Virus record (IMG/VR): IMGVR_UViG_3300000117_000183
Span: 1,243 to 27,777 of that record
Strand: one strand, 5' to 3'
DNA length: 26,535 nucleotides
DNA from: a virus
A program made the position numbers and the translations under genes. The notes beneath the pieces are model-generated. The model had not been told where the DNA came from. It was given only the letters and a program-made list of their open reading frames with translations, and did not search any database. Positions 9,091-22,272 of this stretch are shown in pieces. The first letter of the stretch is position 1; every line of letters begins with the position of its first letter.

Positions 9091-9531
9091 TTAGGAGTTA
9101 TACTTCTTAATTTTATCTCGAAGTTTGATTGCTTTTTCAAAATCTTGTTTAGAAACTGCTTCATCTAATTGTGATTGTAATTCCTGAATCTTTTCTTTAT
9201 TAGATTCGATAGAATTAATCTTATCTCTCAGTTGAGCTGCAGTTTCGTAGTCTTGTGATTCTACAGCTTTGTTCATTTTATCTTTTAATACTGAAACCTC
9301 ACTTGAATCTTTTTTAGGTGCTGTGTTACCATAACGGTAAATGGAAGTTACCTGATAGGTTCCATCTTCTGATGTAAATGTTTCTTTTGTCCAAGCACCA
9401 TTCTCATCTTCACCACTATCAACATCTTTTTTACCTCTTACGACCATAGGGTTGTTATAGGAACCGAATCCATCAAATAATGAGTCAAACTCAGAGAACA
9501 AGTCATTAAAATTAAATTTTCTACGTAACAT
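9091..9531 (-). CDS. Small protein with two UVR motifs (146 aa)
   Basis: The C-terminal half contains two UvrB/UvrC-type (UVR) motifs, VESQDYETAAQLRDKINSIE near 85-105 and VSKQDFEKAIKLRDKIKKY near 124-142, joined by a coiled-coil-like segment. UVR motifs mediate protein-protein contact in UvrB/UvrC, in ClpC and in McsA-type ClpC partners. The N-terminal half (FNDLFSEFDSLFDGFGSYNN; WTKETFTSEDGTYQVTSIYRYG) is not recognised and has no zinc-finger cysteines, unlike McsA. The gene is transcribed divergently from the ClpC-like gene, which carries its own UVR motif. This suggests, without proving, an adaptor or regulator of that unfoldase. It ends at its own terminator. Confidence 0.82.
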   Translation of the reverse strand: MLRRKFNFNDLFSEFDSLFDGFGSYNNPMVVRGKKDVDSGEDENGAWTKETFTSEDGTYQVTSIYRYGNTAPKKDSSEVSVLKDKMNKAVESQDYETAAQLRDKINSIESNKEKIQELQSQLDEAVSKQDFEKAIKLRDKIKKYNS

Positions 9532-9711: not shown

Positions 9712-11733
9712 ATGATAGAATCAGTAGACCCAAACGATAAAGGACCAAGAAAAAAGAAAGAACAACAAAGTTCATCTAAGACCCCTGTACTAGACAATTT
9801 TTCGAGGGACTTGGTGAAACTAGCTTCAGAAGGAAGACTTGACCCTGTAATTGGTAGGGACAGTGAGATTAAAAGAATCGCTCAAATTCTTTCTCGTAGG
9901 AAGAAGAATAACCCAATTATTATTGGTGAGCCAGGTTGTGGTAAAACCGCAATTGTAGAAGGTTTAGCTATGAAAATTTTTGAGGGTGATTGCCCTCAAA
10001 ATCTATGTGATAAACGACTCGTTTCTTTGGATATGACATCTATTGTTGCAGGTACTAAGTACCGTGGACAATTTGAGGAAAGACTTAAGGTAATTCTTGA
10101 TGAACTTCAAGATAATCATGATATTATTATTTTTATCGATGAAATTCACACAATTATTGGTGCAGGTAATACCTCAGGTTCTTTAGATGCATCCAACATC
10201 TTTAAACCCGCATTGGCTCGAGGTGAACTACAATGTGTAGGTGCAACCACCCTCGATGAATACCGTGAGAATATCGAGAAGGATGGTGCTTTGGAACGTA
10301 GATTTCAAAAGGTAATGGTTGACGGTTCAACTCCTGATGAGACTTTAGAAATTCTTCAGAACTTGAAGTCTCGTTATGAGGACCACCACAAGGTCGTGTA
10401 CACAGATAAGGCACTTCAGACGTGTGTAACACTTGCGGACCGTTATGTTACCGATAGGGAATTCCCTGACAAAGCAATCGATATTATGGATGAGGTTGGT
10501 GCTCGTGCACAAATCAACGTTAAACTTCCTGAAATCATCGAAGAACTTCGAGCAGAAGCCCTTGAAATTAAAGATAAGAAGATTCAGGTTGTAAAGAGTC
10601 AGAAGTACGAGGAAGCTGCTCAACTACGTGACCGAGAACGTAAGATTATCGAAAAACTTGAATATGAGAAAGAAAAGTTTGATTCAAGAAAAGATGAGGA
10701 GCGTAAAGAAATCACCGAAGAAATGATTTACGATGTAGTTTCACATATGACTAAGATTCCTTTATCTAAATTAAATGCAGACGATAAGGAGAGTCTGTTG
10801 GATTTGGAGAGTAACCTTAACTCATCTGTAATTGGTCAAGAAGCCGCGGTTAAGACGATTTCAAAAGCAATTCGTAGAAACCGTGTGGGTATTAAAGACC
10901 CAAGTCGTCCAATCGGTTCGTTTATCTTCTTGGGCTCCACAGGTATTGGTAAGACACACTTAGCCAAACAATTGGCAAAAGAAATTTTTGGTGATGAGGA
11001 TTCGTTAATCCGTGTTGACATGTCTGAATACCAAGAGAAATTCTCTATGAGTAGATTGATTGGTTCCCCTCCTGGTTATGTTGGATATGACCAAGGTGGT
11101 CAGTTGACCGAAGCAGTCAAAAACAAACCATACTCAGTAGTATTGTTTGATGAGATTGAAAAGGCAAATAAAGACATCTTCTCAATCCTCCTACAAATGA
11201 TGGATGACGGTCACCTAACAGACTCTTTCGGTAGAAAGATTAATTTCAGAAACTGTCTGATTATTATGACTTCCAATCTTGGTGTTAAGAAACTACAGGA
11301 CTTCGGTTCAGGTGTTGGATTCGACACTACAACACGAATCTCAAATAACGAAGCAATGAAGAAGGCTTTGTTGGAGAAAGAGTTGAAAAATCACTTCACT
11401 CCTGAGTTCTTGAATCGCGTAGATGAGGTAGTAATCTTCAACCCACTAAGAGAAAATGAAGTTGAGCAAATCGTAGAGATTGAATTGTCTAAACTAGACC
11501 GTAGACTCGACCGTCTCGGATATGAAGTGACCATCGACAATAAAGTTAAGAAGTTCTTATCAGAAGTAGGTTTTGATGAAAAATATGGGGCAAGACCAAT
11601 TAAACGAGCAATTCAAGAGAAAATCGAAGATTTGATTTCAGAAGAAGTTCTTAGAGGTAATATCACAGAAGGCGTACCTTGTAAACTGAAAATGAAAGGA
11701 AAAGAAGAAGTAGTTTTAGAAAAGGGGAAATAA
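9712..11733 (+). CDS. ClpC-like double AAA+ unfoldase lacking the N-domain
   Basis: 673 residues with two AAA+ modules. D1 starts with the classical entry [22 protein letters not shown], Walker A GEPGCGKT (72-79) and Walker [16 protein letters not shown] near 140. A UVR motif ([17 protein letters not shown]) near 295-311 marks ClpC rather than ClpA or ClpB. D2 has Walker A GSTGIGKT (about 408-415), Walker [11 protein letters not shown] near 480 and arginine-finger region [12 protein letters not shown] at about 535-537 (GSGVGFDTT) occupies the place of the ClpP-docking loop of ClpC, so pairing with host ClpP is likely. Cellular ClpC is over 800 residues; the missing part is the N-terminal Clp_N domain that binds substrates and adaptors. 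It would unfold proteins for degradation in the host cytoplasm. Divergent from the UVR gene, with its own terminator. No ClpP gene is in the window. Confidence 0.93.
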
Positions 11734-11795: not shown

Positions 11796-12866
11796 ATGAA
11801 AAACGAACAGCTCAATCGTCTTAAAGAAGTTCTCTCAGTTCCCACAAAAACCTATAAGGAAGATGGGATGGTAGACTACATTATTAGTGTTCTTGAGACG
11901 ATTGATGGAGTGACGTATTACAATGACCCAATGAACAACGTTTATGCCACTAAAGGTACGCTACCTGATGGTGAGTTTTACCCGATGTTTGTTGCTCACA
12001 CAGATACGGTTCATGAGTTGGTTGATGACATTGTTGTAGAGGAGGAAAATCTCGAAAAACCCCCCACTTTTGGTCGAACGTTTACTGAAGAACTAAACTT
12101 ATCTCTAAAGGGATATACACCACAAGGGAATCCAACGGGAATCGGTGGTGACGATAAATGTGGTGTTTTTTTGGCACTCGAACTCCTTCGCACTTTGTCA
12201 CATGTAAAGGTCGGTCTTTTCGTATCAGAAGAGACTGGGTGTCACGGCTCGAAAGAGTGTGATGTTGAGTTCCTCAAGGATGTGGGATATGCGATTCAAT
12301 TTGACGCACCTGGAAATCATTTGGTTACCGAAGTTTGTTCGGGGGTTCGTTTGTTTGAAAGTAAAGGTGATTTTATTAATCGCATTATCCCCGTCTTTGA
12401 AAACTCTATGGGTGTGTCCCCATACCTTCAATCCCATCCATACACTGATGTATCTCAAATTAAGATGAAAGGAGATTTCTCTTGTATTAATTTCTCTTGT
12501 GGGTACTACAACATGCATACCTCTTCTGAGTTTGTTGTTGTGAAGGACGTAGAGGATGCGTTTAACTTGGCTGTCGGCGTTGTTAAGGAGCTTGGTAATA
12601 CGAAGTATGAGTACACTTATGTCCGTCCTACATATGACTACTACGGTCAAGGTAACTTGTTTACTAATTACGAAGACGAAGATGATGACTACAACTACAA
12701 GGAAACTGATTGGGTTGATGGTGATAACCACTACTTTCACATCAGTGAGGACGAGATTGAGATTGAATCTAAGTCGACTGGTGATGTAATCTCTCTGAGT
12801 CTAAAGGATATGGGTGATTTGTATCTCCTTATCCGTGAACGTTTGTTGGAAAACGAGGAGTTTTAA
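11796..12866 (+). CDS. M20-type zinc metallopeptidase (peptidase T-like)
   Basis: 356 residues. Motifs of the M20 (and related M42) di-zinc aminopeptidase group are in order: H68-T-D70 in FVAHTDTVHE, the bridging Asp in GIGGDDKCG (119-120), the catalytic/ligand pair E145-E146 in VSEETGCHGS, D170 in FDAPG and H241 in YYNMHTSSE. All expected metal and catalytic residues appear present. The lid domain between about 180 and 230 seems shorter than in cellular peptidase T (about 400 residues). The C-terminal ~75 residues are an acidic extension (NYEDEDDDYNYKETDW) outside the peptidase fold. No signal peptide, so it acts in the cytoplasm, probably trimming peptides. Placed after the ClpC-like gene under its own host-type promoter, it could process products of Clp degradation (inference). 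Its stop overlaps the convergent gene's stop. Confidence 0.88.
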   Translation: MKNEQLNRLKEVLSVPTKTYKEDGMVDYIISVLETIDGVTYYNDPMNNVYATKGTLPDGEFYPMFVAHTDTVHELVDDIVVEEENLEKPPTFGRTFTEELNLSLKGYTPQGNPTGIGGDDKCGVFLALELLRTLSHVKVGLFVSEETGCHGSKECDVEFLKDVGYAIQFDAPGNHLVTEVCSGVRLFESKGDFINRIIPVFENSMGVSPYLQSHPYTDVSQIKMKGDFSCINFSCGYYNMHTSSEFVVVKDVEDAFNLAVGVVKELGNTKYEYTYVRPTYDYYGQGNLFTNYEDEDDDYNYKETDWVDGDNHYFHISEDEIEIESKSTGDVISLSLKDMGDLYLLIRERLLENEEF

Positions 12867-16270: not shown

Positions 16271-16825
16271 ATGAAAAAACTACTTACTATCCCATTATTT
16301 ATAATTTTTCTAACCGCATACTCCCAAGGATTTACATTAGTAGAAACTTGTTTTGTAGAAGACCTTAATGGGAACTTAATTGAAATTGATTGTAAAGATT
16401 TGATACCAAACATCAGTAACATTGATTCTATTTGTTGGGAAATGGAGAAACGTTTTGTAAATACATTAAATGAATGGAGACGAAATCATGGAATTAGTGA
16501 ATTAGAGTACGATTATGACATGCAATCACTATTGACAGTTCCTTGGAATGAAAGTCAAGTACAATCAGGTAAGATTAGTCACGGTGAAGGTTATAACAGT
16601 TTAAGAAATAGGAGTAATAGAGTCGGTATTGGTGGTGTAGGTGAGTGTTGTGCATATAATAGTAGGTCTGATATTGGAGAAGTGTCACAATTTTTTATTC
16701 AGTATAAGAATAGTCCTTTACACTGGAAAATTTTAACTGATGAAGACTACCACTATATTGCAGTCTCAGTACTATACAACCAAGAAAAAAATCGGTATTA
16801 TTCTGTAGTAAATGTTAGGTGGTGA
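16271..16825 (+). CDS. Secreted CAP-domain protein (184 aa)
   Basis: Starts with a clear signal peptide (MKKLLTIPLFIIFLTAYSQG; basic start, hydrophobic core, small residues before a likely cut near 18-20). The body fits the CAP/SCP superfamily: MEKRFVNTLNEWRRNHGISELEYD at the start of the fold, SHGEGYN with the cavity His, GGVGECC with the cavity Glu, FFIQYKNSPLHWKILTDEDYHYIAVSV and a closing VVNVRW. Bacterial CAP proteins are exported; proposed activities include binding of lipids or peptidoglycan-associated ligands, but no general reaction is known. Several extra cysteines (C27, C41, C55, tandem CC) suggest disulfides outside the cytoplasm. No strong promoter box was recognised. It directly precedes the tmRNA gene. 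Confidence 0.82.
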   Translation: MKKLLTIPLFIIFLTAYSQGFTLVETCFVEDLNGNLIEIDCKDLIPNISNIDSICWEMEKRFVNTLNEWRRNHGISELEYDYDMQSLLTVPWNESQVQSGKISHGEGYNSLRNRSNRVGIGGVGECCAYNSRSDIGEVSQFFIQYKNSPLHWKILTDEDYHYIAVSVLYNQEKNRYYSVVNVRW

Positions 16826-16826
16826 G

Positions 16827-16857
16827 TTGTTTATTTAAATAAAAGTATTTATCTTTG
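16827..16857 (+). promoter_or_regulatory. Bacteroidota-type promoter of the tmRNA gene
   Basis: TTG (16827-16829), 20 bases, TATCTTTG (16850-16857), giving transcription about 13 bases before the mature tmRNA end. The spacer holds a perfect 14-bp palindrome tttatttaaataaa (16830-16843), and the -7 box overlaps a TATTTATC octamer (16846-16853), one mismatch from the late-type box, so transcription by two systems is possible. Confidence 0.7.
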
Positions 16858-16876: not shown

Positions 16877-17262
16877 GGGGGCGTTTTTGGATTTGACTGG
16901 TACAGTCAGGCACAGAGTGCACGTAGTGAGAGGTTACCTATCACTTTAATACATGGTTACAAAACACAAACGGCGAAACTTTCGCAAAACTTCAGGCAGT
17001 CGGTTTACTCCGCACTGAAGAGGTTTACGCAGCCTAAGGCTCCGTTTACCGCGGGTCGGTCAGGACATATACCTAGGAACAGAAGTCCGTTGTTGAGGTG
17101 GAAAGGTGACTAAACCCTAAATTGAGTCACACATCTGTTGGTGGTAGAGGATGTTAAAATTCAACCACATATTTCGGATTGTTGAGAATCAATAATGACC
17201 TAAACGTGTAGTACTCTCTGTTTGGGGTATACAGGACGGGAGTTCGAGTCTCCCCGCTTCCA
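16877..17262 (+). ncRNA. ssrA: Transfer-messenger RNA (tmRNA), single-piece
   Basis: The 5' end GGGGGCG (16877-16883) pairs with CGCTTCC (17255-17261), giving a 7-bp acceptor stem with G-U at positions 3 and 4; G3-U70 is the alanine identity pair. The 5' domain contains TTTGGATTTGACTGG, close to the conserved tmRNA D-region. The T arm is GGGAG-TTCGAGT-CTCCC (17238-17254). Discriminator A is 17262 and CCA is not encoded (CTA follows). The tag frame fits GGC at 16972 to TAA at 17035-17037: it begins GETFAKL and ends TEEVYAA, 21 residues, preceded by ACAAAC, which I recall also from Bacteroidota tmRNAs. The stop sits in a small hairpin (AGCC-TAA-GGCT). The RNA rescues stalled ribosomes and tags products for Clp proteolysis. 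A host promoter and terminator bracket it. The tag start is inferred from homology. Confidence 0.93.
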
Positions 17263-17270
17263 CTAAAATA

Positions 17271-17306
17271 AATCCTCGATTGTTTTGGCAGTCGAGGATT
17301 TTTTAT
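17271..17306 (+). terminator. Terminator of the tmRNA gene
   Basis: The 9-bp stem aatcctcga / tcgaggatt around a 12-base loop is followed by TTTTATT. The loop contains the -33 TTTG of the next gene's promoter. Confidence 0.88.
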
Positions 17307-17344: not shown

Positions 17345-17932
17345 ATGACACAAGAAGAAGTAACTAAAGAAGTTGAAAACTATAACGGAACTAATAGTTT
17401 CATGAATTCGCTCAAAAAAGGACTTAAGAAATACGGTTCCCTTACTGATAACCAAACTTCTGCAGCTATTCGTGTTATTGAAGGTGCTCGTCGACATGAA
17501 CAAGCGCAAAAACGGATGAATATCACTTTGGTTGGTGATACCATTAAGATTGGTCGTAAGATTGCTTTGGGTATTAAAGAAGAGTATGGTCTTGAGTTTC
17601 ACCCTATTCTTATCGATGTGACCGCAGTTACAGGTATGACGGACCGAGCACTTCGTATTAAAGGTAAGTTGACTAAAGAAAACGGAGGTATTTGCCGTTG
17701 TTGTGCTAAAACCCTTACGGATGATATTTCTAAAGTCACCGGTATCGGCCCTATTTGTTCTAAGTATGTCGGAGTACCCCATCCCCGTAACCTCTATGAC
17801 ACTAACGAAATTGAGACCTATAAGAAGAATATGTCTGAAAAGATTGATTCAATCGGGGAGTTTGAATTTTGGATTCCAAAGAAAGCAATTGTGAAATGGA
17901 ATGGTATGGGGGGAGTGATGGTTAAGATGTAA
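17345..17932 (+). CDS. DUF6011-like zinc-binding protein (195 aa)
   Basis: The frame is open from 17285, but the ATG at 17345 (MTQEEVTKEVENYNGTN) is preferred because an upstream start would lie inside the promoter. The C-terminal half contains GGICRCCAKTLTDDISKVTG followed by IGPICSKYVG: C-x2-C plus a later Cys in a GIGP-x-C setting, the zinc-knuckle pattern of DUF6011, common in phages and phage-related proteins. Upstream is a helical segment (FMNSLKKGLKKYGSLTDNQTSAAIRVI) typical of proteins that carry this motif, and a beta-rich GKxxxL segment (VTAVTGMTDRALRIKGKLT). A nucleic-acid-binding role is plausible but unproven. It has its own promoter and a strong terminator. Confidence 0.82.
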   Translation: MTQEEVTKEVENYNGTNSFMNSLKKGLKKYGSLTDNQTSAAIRVIEGARRHEQAQKRMNITLVGDTIKIGRKIALGIKEEYGLEFHPILIDVTAVTGMTDRALRIKGKLTKENGGICRCCAKTLTDDISKVTGIGPICSKYVGVPHPRNLYDTNEIETYKKNMSEKIDSIGEFEFWIPKKAIVKWNGMGGVMVKM

Positions 17933-18873: not shown

Positions 18874-21800
18874 ATGCTTTTAACTTTTTTAAGGAATTTA
18901 TTCCTTCTTACACTCCCCCTGTTCCTATTTAATGGTAACTTAGGGGCTCAATGTGACGTTTTTATAGAACAAGGTTCTGTAGTCGTTACTGATAATGGTA
19001 GTGGTGTCAAATTTCAGTTTGATGTTACTAACAATTCAGGTAGTGAATGGGAAGGGGATGTACTTAAAATGTATTGGTCACTTAATTCAAGTGCACCTAT
19101 ATGGACCATAGATTATACCTCAAACAACAATGTTGGACCCTTACCTCCTGGACAAACTAGGACAATAACCACCCCATGGTTCGACATTCCAAATCTCCCT
19201 TCATGGTTTCCTGAAGACCCCGGTCCGGGTGGTGACTTGGACGATTATTGGGTCGAGGCTTTAGAATGGCCTTATTGGTCTGCAAATCCAAACGGTTTTG
19301 ATGGGACGTGGTCGCAAATGAATCTACGTCTCGGAAGTTGTGGTTTGGGTGATGGTGCGTGGGTATATAACGATAACGGTGACCCTTATTATGGTCCTTT
19401 TAATAGTGATTGTCCCGATGTAAATAATGATGCGTTTTGTGATTGTGATGTTAATTTTCTTGGGTTTGACCCCGAAACGTATGATGTTAGTGTTGAGGTA
19501 GTATCTCACTGGAATTGTGGTACTTCTTTAAATACCAGTGGTTTTTCGAGTGAAATGGATTATGTCAATATGATTCAAATCGGTGCTCATGTACCTGGTT
19601 GGGATTATCCGTGGGGTTGTACTGCAGCTCAGTACCATTTAGGATGGACGTTTGATAATCCTGTAGCTTTTGAAGAGTTTTATGCTGGTGACACAATTAA
19701 TTATAATATGTTTTCAGACGATACATTCTATGATGATTGTTTTCAGGAAATATTAGAAAGTGATACTTTAACTTCATGTTTAGAGATTGTTTTATGGCAA
19801 ATTAATTATTCTGAAACCGCGATTGTCGGTGAGATAGATGGTGGATGGGCGGCAACATGTGGTACTTGCGCGAACCAAACTCAATTTTACCCTGATATGT
19901 CTATGGAGTTAAACTCAATGAATATTTGTAATGCACCACCTCCATTGTATCCTGGTTGTATGGATTCAGATGCTGAAAATTATAACCCTAATGCGGGATA
20001 TGATGATGGTTCGTGTACATATCCTCCCATTCTTGGGTGTATGAATCCAATTGCATGTAATTATGATGTTAATGCAACTGAAAACTATGGATGTATAACT
20101 TGTGAAACACCTTATGAAGAAGGTCTTGCGTGTAATGAGTTTCAAAATTCATCTAGCTATTGGGATTGGTATTTATCTGTTTTTAACTGTAACCAAGGAT
20201 GTACAGACCCTGAAGCAATTAATTATGATGAAAATGCTGAAAATGATGATGGGTCATGTGAGTACGATACGATAACTTCACCTGACGCAAGTGGATACGT
20301 ATCATTTTTAGGTACTATATGTAATAACGGTATACCATCTAACGAAGTTAATATATTGGTGATTAACCCCGATACGGGTAGTTTTGACGCTACTGATACC
20401 TTATTTAACTACTGTGTTGAAGTACCTGAATTAGGGTTGGATAGTTGTCTGTACGGTGATGTTAACGCTTCCGATTATATGTTACCAGGTGAAGGTCAGG
20501 TAGTATGGAATGTTATTGTACCTAACTATATAACACAATTAACAGTAAATGCGTATTATGCTGAAGGTGAGATTGATGAAAACTCTTCTAATAATACTTA
20601 CTTTTATTCAAATCTTATTCAAGACCCCGATGTATGTCCCGTATTAGGGTGTACTGACCCTATTGCTGAAAATTATAATCCGTTGGCAACTGAAGATAAT
20701 GGTAGCTGTGAATATATGGTCGACCTATCATTAGATAGTGTAACTATAAACGAATACTGTGACGGATTTACCCCATACTGGATTCCTACAATACATCTTA
20801 ACAATTTAACTAACCCTGCAATAAATGAGTACTGTATTAAAATTCAAGTCTTAGGACAAACAAACGATACTATCTGTTTTAATGCAATGGGTACAACAAT
20901 TAATTCATTCGGTGATATTTCATTAGAATGGCCCGAACCAATATACTCATATGGTACTGTTAGTATTCATGTTTTAGATGTTAATGGTGAAAGTCCTAAC
21001 TCATGGGAAGATTTCGGAGAAGATGATAACATCAGTAATAACATGTTAGTTTTGACTATCGGTAACCCTACTATTAATTGTGACGTTTTAGGATGTATAG
21101 ATGAAACCGCTAATAATTTTAATCCTAACGCAAATATAGATGATGGAAGTTGTACCTATGATATTACAGAATTAAATTATTTAGGGTCAGAATGTACGGT
21201 ATATTGTGACCAAACAGGTCCTTACTATTACGTCACCTCCACCTTTCAAAATACGGGTAATGTTACAATTACTGATTTTTGTGCTGAGTGGAATGTAATT
21301 GGGGGTGAGGAAGAGATAGAGTGTTTTAATGGAGTTTTAGAACCTAATCAAACAGTAACTTTAGAATATGGTCCTATATACACTGATGGTAGTGGTGTTG
21401 TATGGGTCTATTTACAAGAACTAAATGGTGTTGTTTTAAACCCTGAAATAGGATTTACAGAAACATTGTTCTGTTTATCAGAAGCTGAATCAATTTGTAT
21501 TTATGGTTGTACAGATAATGAAGCGAACAATTACAACCCTGATGCGGACTTGGATGATGGGTCTTGTCAATATGATGTCTTTGGTTGTACGGACCCTGAA
21601 GCTAACAATTACGACTCGACCGCTAACGTGGACGATGGCTCTTGTACTTATGACGTATTCGGTTGTACAGACCCAACCGCAAATAATTATAACCCCTTGG
21701 CTACGACCGATGATGGAAGTTGTACTTATGATATCTATGGGTGTACTGATTCAAATGCAAATAACTTTAACCCGAACGCAAACGTGGATGACGGTTCTTG

Positions 21801-22272
21801 TGAATATGATGTATTTGGGTGTACTGATGAAAGTGCTAATAATTATAATCCGTTGGCTAACGTAGATGATGGTTCATGTGAATATGACGTTTATGGATGT
21901 ACGGACATGAATGCTATTAACTACAACAGTGATGCAAATATAGATAACGGAACTTGTATTTATCCTGGTCCTTGTGATGAGTTCGATGGTCAAGCGTTCG
22001 CACCAAACGCATTTAGTCCGAATAATGATGGTTTGAACGATTCTTGGGGTGTCATTACAGATGAAGAGTGTTGGAACTCATGGGAAGTGTTAATCTTTAA
22101 CAGATGGGGTCAAATAATATATGAGATGAATAACCCATCTGATAGATGGGATGGTAGTTTTAGAAATGGTGAGTATTATGTTGAAGACGGTGTATATGCT
22201 TATACGTTACGAGCTGTGGCATGGAATTTGGAGACTATAGAAACTACAGGTTTCATAACCGTTCTCAGATAA
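18874..22272 (+). CDS. Secreted repeat protein with T9SS type B sorting domain (1132 aa)
   Basis: The N-terminus MLLTFLRNLFLLTLPLFLF...LGAQC is a signal peptide. Residues about 27-340 form Trp/Asp/Cys-rich beta domains with a CARDB-like segment (VVTDNGSGVKFQFDVTNNSG). Residues about 365-1028 hold eleven units of the form GCTDPxAxNYNPxAxxDDGSCxY, a two-Cys Asp-rich motif familiar from secreted Bacteroidota proteins; between the early units lie three further CARDB-like modules, and the last six units are in strict tandem. The C-terminus (about 1042-1132: FAPNAFSPNNDGLNDSW, VLIFNRWGQIIYE, DRWDGSF, GVYAYTL, GFITVLR) is a gliding-motility-associated (CHU_C) type B sorting signal of the type IX secretion system. 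The product should cross the inner membrane by Sec and the outer membrane by T9SS, ending on or outside the host surface. Late-type box upstream, strong terminator downstream. A virion adhesion role cannot be excluded. Confidence 0.93.
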   Translation: MLLTFLRNLFLLTLPLFLFNGNLGAQCDVFIEQGSVVVTDNGSGVKFQFDVTNNSGSEWEGDVLKMYWSLNSSAPIWTIDYTSNNNVGPLPPGQTRTITTPWFDIPNLPSWFPEDPGPGGDLDDYWVEALEWPYWSANPNGFDGTWSQMNLRLGSCGLGDGAWVYNDNGDPYYGPFNSDCPDVNNDAFCDCDVNFLGFDPETYDVSVEVVSHWNCGTSLNTSGFSSEMDYVNMIQIGAHVPGWDYPWGCTAAQYHLGWTFDNPVAFEEFYAGDTINYNMFSDDTFYDDCFQEILESDTLTSCLEIVLWQINYSETAIVGEIDGGWAATCGTCANQTQFYPDMSMELNSMNICNAPPPLYPGCMDSDAENYNPNAGYDDGSCTYPPILGCMNPIACNYDVNATENYGCITCETPYEEGLACNEFQNSSSYWDWYLSVFNCNQGCTDPEAINYDENAENDDGSCEYDTITSPDASGYVSFLGTICNNGIPSNEVNILVINPDTGSFDATDTLFNYCVEVPELGLDSCLYGDVNASDYMLPGEGQVVWNVIVPNYITQLTVNAYYAEGEIDENSSNNTYFYSNLIQDPDVCPVLGCTDPIAENYNPLATEDNGSCEYMVDLSLDSVTINEYCDGFTPYWIPTIHLNNLTNPAINEYCIKIQVLGQTNDTICFNAMGTTINSFGDISLEWPEPIYSYGTVSIHVLDVNGESPNSWEDFGEDDNISNNMLVLTIGNPTINCDVLGCIDETANNFNPNANIDDGSCTYDITELNYLGSECTVYCDQTGPYYYVTSTFQNTGNVTITDFCAEWNVIGGEEEIECFNGVLEPNQTVTLEYGPIYTDGSGVVWVYLQELNGVVLNPEIGFTETLFCLSEAESICIYGCTDNEANNYNPDADLDDGSCQYDVFGCTDPEANNYDSTANVDDGSCTYDVFGCTDPTANNYNPLATTDDGSCTYDIYGCTDSNANNFNPNANVDDGSCEYDVFGCTDESANNYNPLANVDDGSCEYDVYGCTDMNAINYNSDANIDNGTCIYPGPCDEFDGQAFAPNAFSPNNDGLNDSWGVITDEECWNSWEVLIFNRWGQIIYEMNNPSDRWDGSFRNGEYYVEDGVYAYTLRAVAWNLETIETTGFITVLR
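21505..21963 (+). repeat. Six tandem 78-bp GCTD...DDGSC repeats
   Basis: Five full 78-bp (26-residue) units and a final 69-bp unit run in frame, joined by YDVF/YDIY/YDVY. Codons differ between copies while the protein motif is kept, so the array is not a very recent expansion. Five more dispersed units lie upstream in the same gene. Confidence 0.92.

Follow-up and report, generated by a model that had tools for sequence, protein, structure and literature searches.

A phage tmRNA with a conserved long tag, genetically linked to a phage ClpC-like unfoldase: a possible tag-and-degrade pathway

Introduction

Phages are already well known to carry tmRNAs (PMC4131195), and a tmRNA is present in 402 of 18,146 phage genomes (PMC9004378). 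The phage studied here shares a complete phage-borne ssrA with the Bxz1 group mycobacteriophages, Wildcat, Bacillus phage G and methylophage Melnitz. In mycobacteriophage Wildcat, the tmRNA is the top lytic transcript (PMC7474061). The tag of Bacillus phage G (AKLNITNNELQVA) ends in VA, an ending that is also found in the family described below. The Melnitz tmRNA is a two-piece molecule with a riboswitch (PMC9004378) and phage DS6A carries the tRNA-like part only (PMC4131195), whereas the tmRNA reported here is complete and in one piece. Pseudomonas phage pf16 encodes SspB, which is likewise a phage-borne part of the ssrA degradation route; unlike the present phage, however, it has no tmRNA (PMC5587285). 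Reasons proposed for the carriage of tmRNA by phages include maintaining the translation machinery that they have hijacked and recycling host protein (PMC9004378).

In this study, we analyzed a stretch of 26,535 nucleotides (the window) from the IMG/VR record IMGVR_UViG_3300000117_000183. Homologs were searched in IMG/VR using the window proteins and the tag pattern as seeds, followed by a nucleotide profile, and relatives of the DUF6011-containing protein encoded by the first gene 3' of the tmRNA (17345..17932, plus strand; Pfam PF19474) were used for finding further tmRNA loci. A total of 129 distinct full-length phage tmRNA homologs was collected with the nucleotide profile. The relatives are without exception contigs from metagenomes, and INPHARED yielded no cultured member of the group.

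Results

The tmRNA gene

ARAGORN made a single tmRNA call in the window, at 16877-17263 on the plus strand, with the tag GETFAKLQAVGLLRTEEVYAA. The Rfam model RF00023 matched 16877-17265 with 99.4 bits (gathering score 47, E 5.2e-38) from model position 1 to 374, which is its full length; chance cannot account for a full-length match that scores more than double the gathering value. The one-piece gene occupies 16877..17262 (plus strand), and position 17262, given as its end by an earlier sequence-only reading, is the natural gene end. CCA is not encoded: the discriminator A17262 is followed by CTA. The acceptor stem is formed by GGGGGCG (16877-16883) and CGCTTCC (17255-17261) with G-U as its third pair, and a T arm is present. 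This G3-U70 alanine identity pair was found in 103 of 110 relatives, with a covarying acceptor stem. The tag reading frame (16972..17037, plus strand) consists of 21 codons at 16972-17034 and a TAA stop at 17035-17037, and the frame and its length (21-22) are kept in the 129 distinct relatives. By its score, its tRNA-Ala-like stem with T arm, and its tag frame with resume codon and stop, the gene belongs to RF00023. The sequence-only reading had described a complete one-piece tmRNA with a G-U-containing acceptor stem and a 21-codon tag before TAA. Both descriptions hold: the covariance-model score is above threshold, and the tag frame called by ARAGORN at 16972-17037 does not give a host-type tag. 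Because tmRNA is pseudoknotted, a single-sequence RNA fold (z -2.0) is uninformative.

The window tmRNA has its own promoter-like element. The Bacteroidota-type motif (16827..16857, plus strand) is composed of TTG at 16827-16829, a 20-nt spacer and TATCTTTG at 16850-16857, about 20 nt 5' of the tmRNA. In the relatives, TAnnTTTG lies 15-45 nt 5' of the tmRNA in 104 of 127 distinct sequences, versus 3.3% of shuffled sequence, and 98 of those 104 have a TTG 17-25 nt further 5'. On the other side, an intrinsic terminator with a 14-pair stem and a T run is predicted at 17270..17301 (plus strand; fold -19.1 kcal/mol). In two pairs of relatives (L091 and L092, L014 and L099), near-identical tRNA-like ends and tags are combined with pseudoknot modules of two unrelated kinds, as though recombination had exchanged this domain.

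For comparison, host tmRNAs were read with ARAGORN in seven Bacteroidota genomes and in a sample of Flavobacteriales, giving 54 loci in all, mostly of Flavobacteriales. Host tags have 9 residues and are almost all of the form Gxx[N/E][YF]ALAA (GENNYALAA type), the exceptions being two miscalled starts. The statements in the sequence-only reading that Bacteroidota tags have about nine residues and that the phage tag is more than twice as long (21 versus 9) were thus both confirmed on these 54 loci. Like the Bacteroidota host ssrA, the phage tmRNA is a one-piece RNA of the same Rfam family; both have an acceptor stem of the alanine type, GGC as the resume codon and a tag that begins with G[EN]. 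In contrast, the host tag has 9 residues ending in ALAA, the phage tags have 21-22 and mostly end in VA, and the window tag itself has 21 residues ending in YAA, which sets it apart from the host type. In a tree of 66 phage tmRNAs and 55 others (the 54 host loci and phage G), the 66 phage sequences group in a single clade, separate from the host tmRNAs (support 0.997). No match to the window tmRNA was found by blastn in 395 Bacteroidota genomes, in a search run without a positive control, nor among the INPHARED phages. One Flavobacteriales chromosome (G086) contains, besides its normal host tmRNA, a weakly scoring tmRNA-like sequence of 49.3 bits (L440:4762-5173); ARAGORN calls no gene there, and the sequence was judged unrelated.

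The tag family

All 129 homologs encode a tag of the family G[END][TV][FIL]xK[LM]xx[LIV]GL[LIVT]R...VA with 21 or 22 residues. The 85 different tags among them, of which 81 have 21 residues and 4 have 22, fall into the two subtypes GxTFAK[LM] and GNVLNKM. Residues G1, G11 and L12 are invariant in loci selected independently of the tag. The C-termini of the 129 tags are VA in 77, AA in 23 and GA in 11. Thus, the final Ala-Ala that the sequence-only reading regarded as kept from the host is present in the window phage, but it is a minority ending among its relatives. Five loci (L205, L206, L249, L277 and L282) have a tag ending in VVTI with no final Ala, which is unusual for an ssrA tag.

Loci found by the tag pattern were kept out of the selection test, because tag conservation in them would be circular; the test set comprised loci reached through clpC or the downstream gene. 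In this set, pN/pS was 0.58 in the tag frame and 0.35 in close pairs, compared with 0.98 and 1.42 in the +1 and +2 frames, and the third codon position was the most variable one. This indicates that the peptide itself is under selection, and the tag is under purifying selection at the protein level. A search for tag-like C-termini on phage proteins, which could reveal a shared degron, gave a single match, in which a reading frame runs by accident into the tmRNA. One tag-pattern match (L258, in record G503) proved not to be a tmRNA. With ARAGORN alone, only 26 loci were found at first, several of them with misread tag starts. In many contigs ARAGORN either fails to detect the long tags or reads them wrongly, and the group may have been overlooked for that reason.

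The ClpC-like unfoldase and the neighboring genes

About 5 kb 5' of the tmRNA, the window encodes a ClpC-like Hsp100 unfoldase of 673 aa (9712..11733, plus strand). According to Pfam, it contains two AAA+ domains and a UVR motif in the middle domain, with no match to Clp_N. Its best solved relative in the PDB is ClpC, with query residues 13-665 on chain residues 149-800. The ClpP-docking loop reads GVGF in the window, and an [ILVM]GF loop was found in 81 of 81 phage ClpCs. Both AAA+ modules, the middle domain and the ClpP loop are shared with ClpC of Staphylococcus aureus and Bacillus, but the N-domain of those proteins, about 148 residues, is absent from the phage version. The 81 phage ClpC copies leave no room for it, as the upstream open frame extends for at most 36 aa. 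Since the Clp_N domain is missing while the other ClpC features are present, the protein is called ClpC-like. Of the six proteins chosen as "host ClpC" controls, five proved to be ClpB-like and to lack the ClpP loop; these five were retained as negative controls. In record G517 (IMGVR_UViG_3300042197_003333, 45306-50769, minus strand), which is from a tmRNA-bearing phage, clpC is interrupted twice and lies in three pieces; the two insertions, each about 1.7-1.8 kb long, are candidate inteins or introns.

Among 80 clpC loci, 45 extend for 6.4 kb or more beyond the 3' end of clpC, and in all 45 a tmRNA lies 3' of clpC on the same strand at a distance of 1.1-6.3 kb. Conversely, clpC was found in 28 of 29 true tmRNA records picked by their tag, the exception being a 63-kb fragment. 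Two related records of 190-194 kb (G535 and G536) have neither clpC nor tmRNA. A tmRNA also occurs in a 484-kb uncultured phage whose ClpC is about 50% identical (LR756508.1, 92434-92880); the tag, read by eye, may have 36 residues (GVNNADYESAGF...KPAAV), and ARAGORN gives 8 residues.

A metallopeptidase gene of the peptidase T / M42-like type (11796..12866, plus strand) adjoins clpC in 77 of 80 loci. The sequence of its product scores under the NCBI cut-offs, and the assignment comes from fold and metal ligands together with the neighborhood: the AlphaFold2 model (pLDDT 85) matches the aminopeptidase PepT 3gb0 (E 7e-14), and the candidate metal ligands H68, D70, D119/D120, E145/E146, D170 and H241 are invariant. 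The modeled enzyme is a probable peptide recycler. Divergent from clpC, the window also encodes a protein of 146 aa with two UVR motifs (9091..9531, minus strand; PF02151 twice), which adjoins clpC in 39 of 80 loci (alignment A2) and matches NCBIfam McsA weakly, in its UVR part only. UVR motifs are found in known ClpC partners such as McsA, so this protein is a candidate ClpC adaptor; of the zinc fingers and UVR motif that mark McsA-type adaptors, it showed the UVR motifs alone. Directly 5' of the tmRNA, 16271-16825 encodes a signal-peptide-like start and a CAP domain, and is present in only 2 of 80 clpC loci. Further downstream, 18874-22272 encodes a probably secreted protein of 1132 aa that contains DDGSC repeats as well as a CHU_C domain of type IX secretion; such a protein in a phage genome points to a Bacteroidota host.

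ClpP and SmpB in related phages

Neither clpP nor smpB was seen in the window, whose record is only 27.8 kb long. Among 21 module-carrying records of at least 150 kb, ClpP is encoded in 16 and was undetected in 5; thus, the phage protease is not always self-contained. Where present, clpP lies tens of kb from clpC. A relative of 115 kb (L002), with a clpC 87% identical to that of the window and the same tmRNA tag, also has clpP. The copy inspected (L460) scores 237 bits as ClpP, below the NCBI cut-off of 361 bits, versus 71 as head-maturation protease, and it has the Ser-His-Asp motifs GMAASMGS, MLHQ and SQRD. Judged by this copy, the ClpP of the relatives appears to be a true ClpP and not a head-maturation protease. 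SmpB was found in 2 of 40 records, at L464:1483-1935 and L465 (records G502 and G528, 280-310 kb), and the one copy checked of the two, L464, scores above the NCBI cut-off.

Discussion

We consider it probable that these phages own a tag-and-degrade pathway, in which the phage tmRNA marks stalled products for the phage ClpC working with ClpP. During infection, the phage tmRNA would rescue stalled ribosomes, adding Ala and a phage-specific degron of 21 residues that would be fitted to the phage-encoded ClpC unfoldase without N-domain. From ClpC, the tagged proteins would pass to ClpP, encoded by the phage itself where it has the gene and otherwise by the host, and the peptidase-T-like enzyme would break the peptides down to amino acids. 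The host would supply ribosomes, alanyl-tRNA synthetase and, apart from the two relatives that bring their own, SmpB. The phage would benefit by the clearing of stalled products and the recycling of amino acids. The computed results behind this pathway are the complete tmRNA, the conservation of the tag, the linkage to clpC, the docking loop, the ClpP of the relatives, the promoter-like element and the terminator; from these we infer that ClpC reads the tag, that degradation follows, and that clearing and recycling benefit the phage.

The sequence-only reading had suggested that the phage RNA may divert tagged products to a different protease or away from host ClpXP. The former idea gains circumstantial support, as the tmRNA is always linked to the phage's own ClpC-like unfoldase and ClpP is encoded in most long relatives. 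The latter is weakly argued, because a C-terminal hydrophobic residue followed by Ala may still be read by ClpX, as in LVA-type degrons. The point of the tag is likely its fit to the phage unfoldase more than the mere loss of a host signal. In its protective form, in which the tag takes the place of the host degron and host ClpXP would spare the rescued phage polypeptides, the idea accounts for the replaced ALAA signal. However, the unfoldase and the peptidase encoded near the tmRNA suggest destruction rather than protection, VA and AA ends persist, and truncated polypeptides are seldom worth keeping; we regard this explanation as very improbable.

Alternatively, the tmRNA may serve ordinary rescue, with host ClpXP and Lon degrading the products, the linkage to clpC reflecting synteny, and a long tag being tolerated where only its hydrophobic, Ala-ending C-terminus matters. 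Phage tmRNAs are indeed widespread (402 of 18,146 genomes; PMC9004378), nearly all tags end in Ala, mostly as VA or AA, which suits general Clp recognition, and some long records lack a detected ClpP. Nevertheless, this leaves unexplained why the length is conserved at 21-22 residues in all 85 tags and why the inner KLxxxGL motif is kept; a divergent tag of 21 residues would be superfluous for a second signal of the host type, and the tmRNA occurs where clpC occurs and is missing where clpC is missing. Ordinary rescue therefore seems unlikely. Another explanation is that host defense or RNA breakdown removes the host tmRNA in infection and a resistant phage version stands in for it, the tag being incidental. 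The promoter-like element and terminator of its own would fit such a backup, but neither the protein-level conservation of the tag nor the linkage to clpC is accounted for, and we think it improbable.

For the tag-and-degrade pathway, the linkage between clpC and tmRNA could also come from shared ancestry of a syntenic block rather than from function, and the phage ClpC could have other substrates. ClpC usually engages its adaptors and substrates through the N-domain. Since this domain is missing here, recognition by the phage ClpC would need the pore or an unproven adaptor.

A broader proposal, which we put forward tentatively, is that a large clade of Bacteroidota phages has an orthogonal system of trans-translation and proteolysis, with a private degron of 21 residues recognized by a ClpC without N-domain, usually its own ClpP, a recycling peptidase and sometimes SmpB. 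This system would be parallel to the host ssrA-ClpXP route and not interchangeable with it.

In sum, phage tmRNAs as such are known, but a search of the open-access literature gave no account of a long, conserved family of tags whose gene is linked to those of a phage ClpC and a peptidase. Within that literature, the association of a dedicated tag family with a phage Clp machine appears to be new. With the tmRNA tied to a machine that would destroy its products, the question of what phage tmRNA is for becomes testable. If the tag is private, the degron and unfoldase would be a phage-made pair orthogonal to the bacterial one and a useful tool, and a virus would be shown to be able to bring most of a quality-control pathway with it.
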